Both the position numbers and the translations under genes were made by a program. Of a DNA stretch of 64,000 bases, positions 10,590 through 21,277 are shown in pieces (the first letter of the stretch is position 1; each line of letters opens with the position of its first letter). The notes beneath the pieces are model-generated. The model saw only the letters and a list, made by a program, of their open reading frames with translations, was not told where the DNA came from and made no database searches. This DNA comes from Solidesulfovibrio carbinolicus (lineage in GTDB: Bacteria; Desulfobacterota; Desulfovibrionia; Desulfovibrionales; Desulfovibrionaceae): assembly GCF_004135975.1 (NCBI RefSeq), contig NZ_CP026538.1, forward strand, positions 3,410,001 to 3,474,000, given 5' to 3'.

Positions 10590-10713
10590 CCAAATCCGCT
10601 CCATTCGCCGCGCTTCAAGGCGGCAGTGGCCTCAGACGCAAAACAAAAAGCGCCCATGCCGACACGCAAGCCGGCAAGGCGCACTCAAAAGGCAAAGGGC
10701 AACGCCGGACTCC

Positions 10714-10811
10714 TGCCGCGCCCCCTGTACAAGGCAAAGCGATCACTCAAGAGAAAACATGGCCGCGATTTGCCGCCCACTACGCCTGGTGCGCTTTTCG
10801 CAGATGCGGCG
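10714..10811. repeat. MITE-like element, copy A1 (diverged)
   Basis: The right end TGCGCTTTTCGCAGATGCGG (10792-10811) matches the right end of copy B at about 80% of positions. The left end TGCCGCGCCC matches the TIR consensus TGTCGCGTCC at 8 of 10. The interior is GC-richer and not clearly related. It abuts copy A2 through a shared CTCG (10812-10815). Confidence 0.45.
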
Positions 10812-10815
10812 CTCG

Positions 10816-10915
10816 TGTGGCGTTCTTTAAAAACACGCTCGCATTTTCTAAGAAAACCGTATGGTTTTGAGATGTTGTCTGCGAAATGCCCTCTGCGCTT
10901 TTCGCGAAAGAGGCA
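10816..10915. repeat. MITE-like element, copy A2
   Basis: The left end TGTGGCGTTCTTTAAAAACA matches copy B's TIR and adjacent A-tract. The right end contains TGCGCTTTTCGCG and ends in AGGCA, directly followed by CTAG (10916-10919). That CTAG holds the stop codon of the minus-strand gene that ends here. The interior has its own hairpin, AAAACC-GTAT-GGTTTT. About 100 bp, AT-richer than its surroundings. Confidence 0.6.
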
Positions 10916-11185
10916 CTAGACGAGCGGGCAAAACGGGCCCAGGGCCACATGCTCGGCCAGGGAAGGCCCATCGGGAAGGGATGCGTCAACACTGCGCCCG
11001 AGTTGGCGCAGCCTCTCGCGCAGGAGGCTGGCATGGGATCGGGCAATGCCCTGGGCGGTCATCATGTCGGCCAAGCCGTGCCGCCGGGAAAAGCCCAGCC
11101 GGACGTTGCCGCCGCCGTCAAGGTAAACGTTGCAACACAAGCTATCCACCAAATACATCAGCGGATCTTGACACGCTTCCATCAT
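10916..11185 (-). CDS. Small hypothetical protein
   Basis: 89 aa if it starts at ATG 11185 (MMEACQDPLMYLVDSLCCNV). I do not recognise the family. The reading frame is reasonably gene-like: a beta-type segment (NVYLDGGGNVRLGFSRRHG) followed by an amphipathic helix (SHASLLRERLRQLGRSVD). No strong ribosome binding site is visible, and an overlapping longer frame in the same phase exists, so start and reality are both uncertain. Its TAG stop coincides with the end of the repeat element A2, so the natural 3' end may have been altered by that insertion. Confidence 0.4.
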   Translation of the reverse strand: MMEACQDPLMYLVDSLCCNVYLDGGGNVRLGFSRRHGLADMMTAQGIARSHASLLRERLRQLGRSVDASLPDGPSLAEHVALGPFCPLV

Positions 11186-12528: not shown

Positions 12529-12630
12529 CTAGCGTCGCGTCCCTTAAAAAATACGATAGTATTTTTTACAAATGTTTTTAGCTTGTTGACTACAAAACAC
12601 CATATGCGCTTTTCGCGGACGCGACACTAG
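12529..12630. repeat. MITE-like element, copy B (best preserved), with CTAG flanks
   Basis: Body 12533-12626 (94 bp) lies between perfect CTAG direct repeats (12529-12532 and 12627-12630). The ends are inverted repeats: CGTCGCGTCC on the left against GGACGCGACA on the right (9 of 10). Inside are a 9-bp stem (AAAAAATAC-GATA-GTATTTTTT) and the shared right-end block GCGCTTTTCGCGGACGCGAC. It is AT-rich in the middle and has no coding capacity. The right CTAG contains the TAG stop codon of the DUF1269 gene. A 4-bp CTAG/YTAR duplication is typical of IS5-group elements, so a non-autonomous IS5-like MITE is the likely origin (inference). Confidence 0.75.
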
Positions 12631-13124
12631 GCCGAAGCCTTGGCCGCGTCCAGGGCGGTCTGGAGCTTGGTTTCGTCCTCGTGGGACAGCGAGGTCTGGA
12701 GCACCTTGCCGCCGGTGCCGGACAGCTCGTCGAGCACCTTGTCGGCGGTCATCTTGCGGATGAGCACAAACAGCACCGACGTGCCGGGCTGGAGCTGCTC
12801 GGCCAGTTTTTTCATGAAGTCGTCGTCGATGCCGACGTCGGACAGCGCCCCTGCCGCCGCGCCGGCTCCGGCCCCGACCACGGCCCCGAGGATGGGGTTC
12901 AGGAAAATCAGGCCGATGAGCATGCCCCAGAAGCCGCCGCCCACCGCGCCCGAGGCGGCCAGGTGGTACATCTGGTTGAGCTTCACCTTGCCGTCGTCTT
13001 TCTTCACGGCCACCACGGCGTCTTCCAGGTCGACGAGATATTCCTTCTGCATCTTAAGAAGTTTGAGCCGCACTTCCTCGGCTTTGAACATGTCGTCATA
13101 GCCGACGACGATCAGATCGCTCAT
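12627..13124 (-). CDS. DUF1269 family membrane-associated protein
   Basis: 165 aa. MSDLIVVGYDDMFKAEEVRL at the start, a Gly-rich hydrophobic hairpin in the middle (FWGMLIGLIFLNPILGAVVG then AGAGAAAGALSDVGIDDDFM) and SVLFVLIRKMTADKVLDEL at the end are typical of DUF1269. The function is unknown; members often sit in stress contexts. ATG 13124 is preferred because AAAGGAG lies 8 nt upstream; the frame is open further but without similarity. Its stop lies in the CTAG flank of repeat B, so the repeat inserted exactly at the gene's end. Confidence 0.8.
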   Translation of the reverse strand: MSDLIVVGYDDMFKAEEVRLKLLKMQKEYLVDLEDAVVAVKKDDGKVKLNQMYHLAASGAVGGGFWGMLIGLIFLNPILGAVVGAGAGAAAGALSDVGIDDDFMKKLAEQLQPGTSVLFVLIRKMTADKVLDELSGTGGKVLQTSLSHEDETKLQTALDAAKASA

Positions 13125-18623: not shown

Positions 18624-20069
18624 ATGACGCACGACACTGTGCCGGCGCTGGTCGTGGCCGGCGTCAAAAGCGGTTGCGGCAAGACCTCGGTGGCCCTGGG
18701 CCTCATGCGCTCCCTTGCCCGGCGAGGGCGTATCGTCGCGCCGTTCAAGGCCGGGCCGGATTTCATCGATCCCGGCCACCACGCCCTGGCCGCCGGCCGG
18801 ACAAGCCACAACCTCGACGCCTGGATGTGCGGCGCTTCAGGCGTTGCCGACATCTACGAACGCCATGCGGCCGGGGCCGACGCCGTGGTGGTCGAGGGCG
18901 TCATGGGGCTTTTCGACGGGTTTTCCGCCACCGAGGAAACCGGCAGCACGGCGGAGCTGGCCAAGCTCCTCGATCTGCCGGTGCTGCTGGTCATCGACGC
19001 CGCCTCCATGGCCCGGTCGGTGGCCGCCCTGGCCCGGGGCTTTGTCCGCTTCGACCCGCAGCTGCGGTTTTGCGGCGTGGCCCTCAACAACGCCGGCAGC
19101 CCTTCCCACGCCGCGCTGTTGGCCGAGGCCTTCAGGGCTGCCCTGCCGGACGTTCCGCTCTGGGGCGTGCTGCCCCGCACCGAGGCCATCGCCGCCCCGT
19201 CCCGGCATCTCGGCCTGGTCACGGCCGAAGACAGCCCCGACCTCCTCCCGCGCCTCGATGCCCTGGCCGACTGGCTCGAAACCTCCCTCGACCTCTCATT
19301 TTTCGCCCCTGCCCCCCACCCCCGCCAGCCCGCCCCCACCCCCCATCCAGGGGGGCCGGGGGGGATGATCCCCCCCGGCGGGTCACGGGCAGCGCCCGGC
19401 GGGTGCAGGGCAGCGCCCTGCCGGGTCCGGGCGGAGCCCGGAATAGGCGTGGCTTGCGACAGGGCGTTCTCGTTTTATTATGGCGAGAATCTGCGGTTGC
19501 TGGAGGCGGCCGGGGCCAGGATCGTGCCGTTTTCGCCGCTGGACGACGCCGGGCTGCCCGAGGGCCTGGGAGGCTTGTATTTCGGCGGCGGCTATCCGGA
19601 GCTGCATGCCGATACCTTGGCCGCCAACGCGGCCATGCGCCGGGCGGTGCGGGAATTTTGCATTGCCGGCCGGCCGGTTTATGCCGAATGCGGCGGGTTT
19701 ATGTATTTGATGGAATCGCTTGTGGAGCTGGAGGGCCGCAGCCACGGCCTGTGCGGCGTGTTTCCCATGACGGCCGTCATGGGCAGCCGTTTCGCCGCCC
19801 TAGGGTATCGGGAGGTGACGACCCGGGCGGCCTCCTGCCTGGGGCCGGCCGGGACGACGCTTCGCGGGCACGAGTTCCACTATTCGCGGCTGGCCGCCGT
19901 ACCGGACGGAGCGCCGGCCATTTACGCCATGACCGGGCGGGGGGGCGTTGTCGCGGGGCCGGAGGGCTTTGTCGTCCAGCAAACCCTTGGCAGCTACGTG
20001 CATCTCCATTTCGGCAGCAACCCGGCGGCGGCGGCGGCTTTTGTCGCGGCCTGCGCGGAGGCGTCATGA
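18624..20069 (+). CDS. cbiA: Cobyrinate a,c-diamide synthase with a repeat-derived interdomain linker
   Basis: Amidates cobyrinate at positions a and c using ATP and glutamine. 481 aa. The N-terminal ATPase domain has P-loop AGVKSGCGKTSVALGLM (residues about 11-27) and KAGPDFIDPGHH; the C-terminal glutaminase domain has nucleophile Cys in PVYAECGGFMYLM and the terminal histidine in YVHLHFGSN. Between them, at residues about 231-272, is a Pro/Gly/Ala/Arg-rich stretch (HPRQPAPTPHPGGPGG onward) encoded by four consecutive GC hairpins. After it the family resumes at VACDRAFSFYYGENL. ATG 18624 has GGAG 9 nt upstream. Overlaps cbiD by 4 bp. Confidence 0.9.
   Translation: MTHDTVPALVVAGVKSGCGKTSVALGLMRSLARRGRIVAPFKAGPDFIDPGHHALAAGRTSHNLDAWMCGASGVADIYERHAAGADAVVVEGVMGLFDGFSATEETGSTAELAKLLDLPVLLVIDAASMARSVAALARGFVRFDPQLRFCGVALNNAGSPSHAALLAEAFRAALPDVPLWGVLPRTEAIAAPSRHLGLVTAEDSPDLLPRLDALADWLETSLDLSFFAPAPHPRQPAPTPHPGGPGGMIPPGGSRAAPGGCRAAPCRVRAEPGIGVACDRAFSFYYGENLRLLEAAGARIVPFSPLDDAGLPEGLGGLYFGGGYPELHADTLAANAAMRRAVREFCIAGRPVYAECGGFMYLMESLVELEGRSHGLCGVFPMTAVMGSRFAALGYREVTTRAASCLGPAGTTLRGHEFHYSRLAAVPDGAPAIYAMTGRGGVVAGPEGFVVQQTLGSYVHLHFGSNPAAAAAFVAACAEAS
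19356..19441. repeat. Cluster of four tandem hairpins inside cbiA
   Basis: Stems with 3-nt loops: CCGGGGGGGA-TGA-TCCCCCCCGG (19356-19378), CGGGC-AGC-GCCCG (19386-19398), GCAGGGC-AGC-GCCCTGC (19405-19421) and CCGGGC-GGA-GCCCGG (19427-19441). The core GGGCAGCGCCC occurs twice, 21 bp apart. This looks like intergenic repeat DNA, yet the reading frame passes through it. Confidence 0.75.
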
Positions 20070-21277
20070 AGCGCGAGGGAAAATTGCGCGAGGGCTTCAC
20101 CACCGGCACGGCGGCGGCCGGCGCGGCCAAGGCGGCCGCTTTGCTGCTGCTTGGCGGAGAGGTCCCGGAGGCCATTGACGTGCCCTTGCCCGGCGGCGGG
20201 CGGTTGGTCGTGCCGGTGGCCGAGACCCGGCGTGACGGCGAGGGCGCGTACGGCGCCGTCATCAAGGACGGCGGCGACGACCCGGACGCCACCCACGGCG
20301 CGGCCATCGGCTGCCGGGTGTCCTTTGGCGGCCAGCCTGGGGAGATCGTGGTGGACGGCGGGGAGGGCGTAGGGCGCGTCACCCTGCCCGGGCTGCCGGT
20401 GGCGGTTGGGCAGGCGGCCATCAATCCGGCCCCGCGCGCCCAAATCGCCGCCGCCGTGGCCGAGGCGGTCCGGGAGACCGGCGCGACCCCAACAAAATAC
20501 GAGAGTATTTATTTCCATAAACCGCTTGCCGCATCGTCCTGCCAGCAAAATGCCCTGTCCGCTTTTCGCGGACACGACACGCACGGGCTTCGGGCCGTGG
20601 TCACGGTGGCCGGCGGCGAGGAGATCGCCAAGAAGACCCTCAATCCGCGCCTGGGCATTGTGGGCGGCATCTCGATTCTTGGCGTCACGGGCATCGTGCG
20701 GCCCTTCAGCCACGACGCCTGGCGGGTGTCCATCAGCGAGGCCCTGGACGTGGCCCGGGCGCTTGGCCATGACGTAGTCGGTTTTTCCACGGGCCGGCGC
20801 AGCGAGGCCCTGCTGGCGGCGGCCGAACCGGCGCTGCCGGCCACAGCGCTCATTCAGGCGGCGGATTTTTTCGCCCACGCCCTGCAGGAAGCGGCCAAAC
20901 GGCGCTTCGGGCGCATCGTCTGGGCAGCCTTTGGCGGCAAGCTGGTCAAGATGGCCCAGGGAATGGAGAACACCCATGCCTGGCGCGGGGACACGGATTT
21001 TTCCGCCCTGGCCGACTGGTGCGCGCAGGCGGGCTGGCCCGGGGACGCGGCCAGGCAGGCGGGCCGGTCCAACACCGCCCGGCAAGCCCTGGAGGAAGCG
21101 CCCTCGCCCGGGGCCAAGGCGGCCCTGGTCGCGGTCCTTTCCCGGGAGGCGCTGCGGCACATGCGGCGTTTCGCCGGTCCCGAGCCGGAGCTGGCGCTTC
21201 GGGTCTATGATTTTAACGGCGAGGAGCTGGCCTGCCTGGAGGACCCGGGAAACCCGGCGTCCTCCAGGGGCGCTTGA
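20066..21277 (+). CDS. cbiD: Cobalt-precorrin-5B C1-methyltransferase with a 35-codon repeat insertion
   Basis: 403 aa. Family blocks: LREGFTTGTAAAGAAKAAAL, VIKDGGDDPDATHGAAIGCR, then GGEEIAKKTLNPRLGIVGGI and GVTGIVRPFSHDAW, and near the C-terminus FGGKLVKMAQGMENTHAWRG. Catalyses methylation at C1 in the oxygen-independent corrin route. Residues about 140-174 (ATPTKYESIYFHKPLAASS onward) have no counterpart in the family and coincide with repeat element C. Removing 35 codons rejoins RETG to LRAVVTVAGGEE, which is the normal family sequence. ATG 20066 overlaps the cbiA stop. Confidence 0.9.
   Translation: MKREGKLREGFTTGTAAAGAAKAAALLLLGGEVPEAIDVPLPGGGRLVVPVAETRRDGEGAYGAVIKDGGDDPDATHGAAIGCRVSFGGQPGEIVVDGGEGVGRVTLPGLPVAVGQAAINPAPRAQIAAAVAEAVRETGATPTKYESIYFHKPLAASSCQQNALSAFRGHDTHGLRAVVTVAGGEEIAKKTLNPRLGIVGGISILGVTGIVRPFSHDAWRVSISEALDVARALGHDVVGFSTGRRSEALLAAAEPALPATALIQAADFFAHALQEAAKRRFGRIVWAAFGGKLVKMAQGMENTHAWRGDTDFSALADWCAQAGWPGDAARQAGRSNTARQALEEAPSPGAKAALVAVLSREALRHMRRFAGPEPELALRVYDFNGEELACLEDPGNPASSRGA
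20479..20587. repeat. MITE-like element, copy C, inserted in frame in cbiD
   Basis: The left end CGGCGCGACCCC plus AAAATACGAGAGTATTT aligns with copy B (18 of 23 positions over the first block). The right end CCGCTTTTCGCGGACACGAC matches copy B's right end almost exactly and forms its own hairpin (TGTCCGC-TTTTC-GCGGACA). CGGC (20479-20482) and CGGG (20584-20587) are 105 bp apart and could be a decayed target duplication. The inserted length of about 105 bp is 35 codons, so the frame is kept. Confidence 0.7.

Follow-up and report, generated by a model that had tools for sequence, protein, structure and literature searches.

A degenerate copy of a MITE-like element in frame within cbiD of Solidesulfovibrio carbinolicus, and the docking of related copies on stop codons

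The gene cbiD of Solidesulfovibrio carbinolicus encodes cobalt-precorrin-5B (C1)-methyltransferase (403 amino acids including an insert) at 20066-21277 on the forward strand of the 64,000-nucleotide stretch of DNA analysed here, the window. It raises the question of how a dispersed repeat can come to be read as part of a biosynthetic enzyme, and whether this is usual for the repeat. The protein was identified as CbiD by NCBIfam NF000849 (355.8 bits, cut-off 348), TIGR00312 (347.6 bits, cut-off 200) and Pfam PF01888 (266.1 bits), and the PDB entry 1sr8 matched it both by sequence and by fold.

The element and its copy in cbiD

Aligned BLAST matches of an intergenic copy in the window, about 40 of which were found in its own genome at E <= 1e-7, give a consensus of 109 bp, CTAGTGTCGCGTCC...GGACGCGACACTAG. 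The consensus has perfect terminal inverted repeats of 14 bp, the ends GTGTCGCGTCC and an inner palindrome AAAAATAC-GATA-GTATTTTT. It contains no ORF, having stops in all six frames, three of them in the frame used in cbiD. The element is short, non-coding, bounded by terminal inverted repeats, present with about 100 matches in each copy-rich genome and absent from 12 of 25 sites compared in a close relative, and is best read as a MITE.

A model of the element, R1, was built from 33 genomic copies with the cbiD copy left out; its E-values are rough. Among the 150 candidates scored in the own genome (4.69 Mb, six contigs), 105 matched R1 at E <= 0.01, as expected if the insert belonged to a dispersed family. 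With at most 150 candidates scored per genome, matches were found in all 14 Solidesulfovibrio genomes. With stricter filters and 39 candidates scored per genome, they were found at E <= 0.001 in 13 of 99 genomes of the taxonomic family, belonging to 4 of 44 genera; the other 86 genomes, which had no match at that threshold and depth, are a control of sorts.

The intergenic copy lies at 12529-12630 on the forward strand, replacing the boundaries 12533-12626 proposed in a sequence-only reading. It has the ends CTAGCGTCGCGTCC and GGACGCGACACTAG and a 7-bp deletion relative to the consensus, and scores 118.2 bits, being itself part of R1. A third copy at 10812-10919 (forward strand; 83.6 bits, E 4.3e-17) has the ends CTCG...CTAG and abuts a weak possible remnant of another copy at 10710-10811 on the same strand (20.6 bits, E 0.0044). 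Elsewhere, in contig C1 of genome G088, three matches stand head to tail at 1758271-1758587 with overlaps of about 6 bases, as if each element had inserted at the end of the previous one.

The copy in cbiD occupies 20475-20583 on the forward strand. The sequence-only reading had recognised it there, with coordinates (20479-20587) shifted by 4 bases. It is degenerate but full-length: all 109 model positions (1-109) align without a gap, with 58.5 bits and E 1.6e-11, and consensus bases are kept at 68 of 109 positions. It ends in AGAC...GCAC, with CTAG at neither end. The inserted residues are the element translated in one frame, the consensus reading SVASLKKYDSIF*EK*MVLAR*LQNTICAFRGRDT and cbiD reading GATPTKYESIYFHKPLAASSCQQNALSAFRGHDT, with the three stops of the consensus gone. 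The insert is thus a copy of the dispersed MITE-like element, far beyond chance. The same frame is also free of stops in 26 of the 90 other copies, so an open copy in cbiD is not remarkable in itself.

The insert among CbiD proteins

Alignment with CbiD relatives that lack the element confirms that the insert is in frame. By the codon and loop alignments the net insertion is 20486-20578 on the forward strand, 93 nt or 31 codons (residues 141-171), which is 12 nt short of 105. An insertion of 35 codons, whose excision as 105 bp would rejoin the conserved sequence exactly, had been proposed; such an excision leaves the loop 4 residues shorter than in ten empty Solidesulfovibrio alleles (L123 (= G080), L124 (= G103), G058, G025, G099, G100, G102, G105, G106 and G107; for G104 there is a CbiD fragment only). 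The in-frame insert is common to the window, Solidesulfovibrio magneticus str. Maddingley MBC34 and the isolate UBA7700, whose orthologous copies score 58.6 bits (L121) and 40.1 bits (L122).

The loop alignment has 99 rows with 93 distinct sequences, several strains being present twice. CbiD matched at 109 loci, of which 98 were aligned together with the window and 11 dropped for want of the start motif used for trimming; alignment A2 is without L127 and eight further CbiD rows. The loop has 75 residues in the window, MBC34 (twice, L092 and L121) and UBA7700, 39-49 residues in 89 rows and 52-89 in six, where the residues are unrelated. The inserted residues were found in none of the other 95 rows, so distant CbiD proteins in the alignment do not share them.

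Long unrelated inserts occur at the same loop in L096, L097 and L098, which marks the loop as a tolerant site. One could therefore suppose an unrelated loop expansion that merely resembles the element, given that the loop is longer by 26 residues in L096, 14 in L097/L141 and 45 in L098, and that L096-L098 have no R1 match. However, the ungapped match over 109 positions and the scores of the copies in MBC34 and UBA7700 leave this explanation practically no probability, and for the window copy it is refuted, short of an error of many orders of magnitude in the E-value.

In a cbiD tree with the loop excluded, MBC34 and UBA7700 are sisters (95/99). The window and G100 group with them (100/100) in no fixed order, the window being nearest to G100. 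In the upstream cobB stretch, on the other hand, G100 is nearest to MBC34 (0.094 vs 0.124 to the window). This disagreement means that genes were exchanged or that the branching order is unclear. Since G100 is nearest on the cbiD tree and yet has an empty loop, secondary loss or allele exchange must be assumed. The cbiD of G100 (L232) is unusually divergent near the loop, at 0.16-0.17 in the 48 flanking codons vs 0.06-0.07 among the other three. Our reading is that recombination probably replaced the loop tract of G100; alternatively, G100 may have kept an old allele that never had the insert.

The remainder of cbiD had been thought intact, and the codon comparisons agree, with purifying selection acting while the insert is present. 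For the pairs window-MBC34, window-UBA7700 and MBC34-UBA7700, dN/dS of the insert (34 codons) is 0.73, undefined (dS 0, dN 0.20) and 2.21, and that of the rest of CbiD (368 codons) is 0.23, 0.26 and 0.21. In the same order, nonsynonymous and synonymous changes number 5/2, 14/0 and 11.5/1.5 in the insert and 38.5/57.5, 40.7/53.3 and 27/44 in the rest. Fisher tests of insert against rest, made on rounded counts for three pairs that are not independent, give p 0.13 (not significant), 4.8e-5 and 0.0024. Synonymous divergence is lower in the insert (0-0.09, about 22 sites) than in the rest (0.16-0.22). The insert peptide is nearly free to change and yet is open and in frame, whereas the enzyme is constrained.

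In the AlphaFold model of CbiD (mean pLDDT 84.5), the insert is placed between the helix 121-138 and the strand 175-181. Residues 141-159 and 161-171 have pLDDT below 50, and a low-confidence helix is predicted at 158-165. The only PDB match of the model at E <= 0.001 is 1sr8, CbiD of Archaeoglobus fulgidus (TM 0.50 by target length). The model thus shows the insert as a predicted unordered loop with no evident function. Altogether it appears to be an old, tolerated insertion, and the sequence constraint suggests that CbiD is functional.

Positions of the copies at stop codons

The census comprises 91 of the 105 genomic matches, 14 partial, very short or weak ones being left out, and the coding frame beside each copy was assigned by a score based on the codon usage of the window. 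A total of 66 copies are docked: the reading frame of a flanking gene enters the element, and the triplet at the element's end serves as its stop codon. The stop is TAG in 62 cases, TAA in three and TGA in one. Genes end at the left end of 33 copies, at the right end of 33 and at both ends of none. One copy, that in cbiD, is read through, and 24 lie elsewhere. The gene-side ends of the docked copies are CTAG (48), GTAG (8), TTAG (4) and others (6); the far ends of these copies are more varied, with CGAG in 17, CTAG in 10, and then many. The intergenic copy of the window is an example: a gene on the reverse strand (12627-13124) has its TAG stop in the right end of this copy, the CTAG being 12627-12630. 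In two loci (L027, L282) the stop lies 16 bases inside the element, and the gene seems to have been lengthened by five codons.

In three other genomes, G069, G058 and G100, the 20 best-scoring listed copies each were classified with the same window-trained score. Docked copies number 9, 12 and 11, respectively (32 of 60), and none of the 60 is read through; part of the G100 set goes back to insertions that the genome of the window also has, and hence is not independent.

These counts bear on the parallel with Rickettsia palindromic elements drawn in the sequence-only reading, by which the family would be adapted to life in proteins, its coding frame kept and selected as a harmless peptide. There is one in-frame copy, and many copies are free of stops in at least one of the six frames. 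However, reading through is limited to one of 91 own copies and to none of the 60 others, the consensus is closed in every frame, and the inserted residues are not conserved. We consider such an adaptation very improbable; the rule is docking on stop codons.

CTAG is rare in the window, with 27 occurrences against 194 expected from base composition. Outside the copies, 7 CTAGs of the window are in stops and 6 are intergenic. In the loci around the own elements, CTAGs outside elements number 18 in stops, 25 in non-coding DNA and 20 inside genes. Insertions in genes should mostly be purged, so that stop codons and spacers remain. Docking was therefore compared with the share of stops among free non-coding CTAGs: 66 of 90 copies vs 18 of 43 (p 6e-4), the latter background being small, with loci chosen around elements and crude gene calls. 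Availability of CTAG alone was rejected as a full explanation, because this excess leaves it only a part of the docking. One possibility, which we regard as less likely than not, is that the transposase is drawn to CTAG where it forms a stop codon at the 3' end of a gene, and that the element, with a stop codon in its ends, re-creates the stop on which it lands, a safe harbour; the dissimilar copies that two species have at one stop codon, L016 (see below), also speak for it. If such targeting is true, the cbiD copy would be what happens when the element misses.

The same excess could also arise if the elements were functional RNA structures at 3' ends, terminators or mRNA stabilisers kept at the ends of genes, with the cbiD copy a stray. 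Indeed, the consensus folds at -42.7 kcal/mol (z -7.9), and the positions at gene ends agree with such a role. On the other hand, there is no sign of covariation, the proportion of paired cells (87.5%) being equal to that in shuffles; RNAalifold retains 4 pairs; and a close relative has no element at 12 of 25 docked sites. This makes a function in RNA unlikely, though less so than an adaptation to proteins. No Rfam match at the gathering score was observed in the window between 12400 and 21500.

Insertion at CTAG and known systems

The close relative is G100. For 25 docked copies the terminal 100 bases of the gene were searched in it, and all 25 had a match. The element is absent from 12 of these sites, 11 have the same copy and two (L016, L032) a dissimilar one; R1, applied as a check, matched in those 13 loci and gave no match at E <= 10 in the other 12. 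At L016 the two sister species have dissimilar copies in opposite orientation at the same stop codon. The 12 element-free sites have TAG at the same place in eight cases, TAA in one, TGA in two and no stop in one. They include the site beside the intergenic copy of the window (L011 = L250), where the orthologue of gene 12627-13124 ends in TAG. The far flank is strongly diverged in G100 at L011, L018 and L019, and two further empty sites (L020, L027), which are not at stops, do not tell the modes of insertion apart.

At five clean empty sites (L012, L015, L025, L026, L031) both flanks align and a single CTAG stands, as judged by eye, at the position of the element. Thus CTAG corresponds to CTAG-element-CTAG at L012 and L015 and to CTAG-element-CGAG at L025, L026 and L031, the latter form being present already at recent insertions. 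The ends, the target and the empty sites fit cut-and-paste transposition at the TA within CTAG. The CGAG far end does not, since a simple duplication of the target TA would not give it. In copies shared with G100, 8 of 13 CGAG far ends are identical and five are not, and L021 has T there. Late mutation as the source of CGAG is not favoured by the eight identical ends. They suggest an alternative, in which the element enters between CT and AG and its last base varies.

Our best guess is that a transposase acting in trans, most likely IS630/Tc1-mariner-like, moves the element and inserts it at the TA of CTAG. Such insertion would re-create TAG, and the end of the gene would be kept. As CTAG is rare and often part of a stop codon (C TAG), and TAG is re-created, most surviving copies would be docked on stops. 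One copy may have entered the CbiD loop, which is flanked by a helix and a strand, before the window species and the lineage of MBC34 and UBA7700 parted from their common ancestor. This copy had, or acquired through later mutations, a net length divisible by three and a frame without stops, and for that reason could survive as a loop of 31 residues, presumably translated within an active CbiD. As a whole, this explanation, a decayed non-autonomous MITE copy in cbiD from a family docked on stops via insertion at CTAG, seems to us highly probable. Points that weigh against it are the CGAG far ends, the cbiD copy's lack of CTAG at its ends and its shortfall of 12 nt, the empty loop of G100, the low synonymous divergence of the insert, the p of 0.13 for window-MBC34 and the result for an autonomous partner that follows.

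Of 171 places considered for an autonomous partner, the first 100 showed no conspicuous pair of termini at the distance expected of an IS. One candidate, L028 (C1:104034-105147), was rejected, as here an IS bounded by its own ends has split a copy of the element. This 1.0-kb IS has a transposase-like ORF, is flanked by TTAAGAAA on both sides, and is presumably IS1595-like.

REP sequences have a high copy number, form intergenic palindromes and have CTAG/GTAG ends. The element shares these features, so that REP/BIME-type palindromes moved by a Y1 (RAYT) transposase have to be considered. However, Y1_Tnp (PF01797) was not found in the copy-rich genomes G097, G101 (89% complete), G058 and G106, which have 119, 137, 51 and 57 element matches, respectively, among at most 150 candidates scored in each. 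Judging by equal match coordinates, G097 is probably MBC34 and G101 UBA7700. The terminal inverted repeats of 14 bp and the length of 109 bp also argue against this type, and we give it very little probability.

Our search of the open-access literature, a scope outside which most subscription journals lie, yielded no paper on this element. The family is perhaps new and its kind known, its way of being harmless unusual and perhaps general, with one rare copy inside a gene. Found throughout the genus, a family with an end triplet that serves the host gene as its stop codon suggests that a transposon can become almost harmless through its choice of target; in a genome poor in CTAG this can be tested directly.

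According to a review (PMC10969869, on Ogata et al. 2000, 2002), nearly half of the Rickettsia palindromic elements are in ORFs, with conserved peptides. The present element resembles them in being short and dispersed and in having entered a metabolic gene in frame, where it is apparently tolerated, but of the 91 copies in our census a single one lies in frame within a gene, and its peptide is not conserved. For IS630 a preference for TA within 5'-CTAG-3' is reported (Tenzen and Ohtsubo 1991, cited in PMC2170065), and for ISY100 a duplication of TA (PMC2170065). By these descriptions, MITEs of the IS630/Tc1-mariner kind agree with the element in terminal inverted repeats, lack of an ORF, high copy number and CTAG target, and differ in that the element often has a CGAG far end, not given by TA duplication.

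QMITE1 and QMITE2 of Coxiella burnetii are described as lying in frame within an ORF or extending its 3' end (PMC5896051). The likeness, in description and not in sequence, is to both kinds of insertion; the host is another one, and here docking is the rule and extension the exception. SMR-A of Haloquadratum walsbyi is described as an element of about 110 bp with prominent inverted repeats and up to 54 copies, its mobiliser not known, and with a strong target preference, the reported target being palindromes of other elements, without target duplication (PMC3119063). Size, inverted repeats, many copies and strong target preference are as in our element; the archaeal host and the reported kind of target set SMR-A apart. 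In-frame fusions of MITEs with genes are called "not unusual" in the review cited above (PMC10969869) and thus are not new. What the cbiD case adds is an insert inside a biosynthetic enzyme and a comparison of three genomes, in which a relaxed insert stands beside a constrained enzyme.
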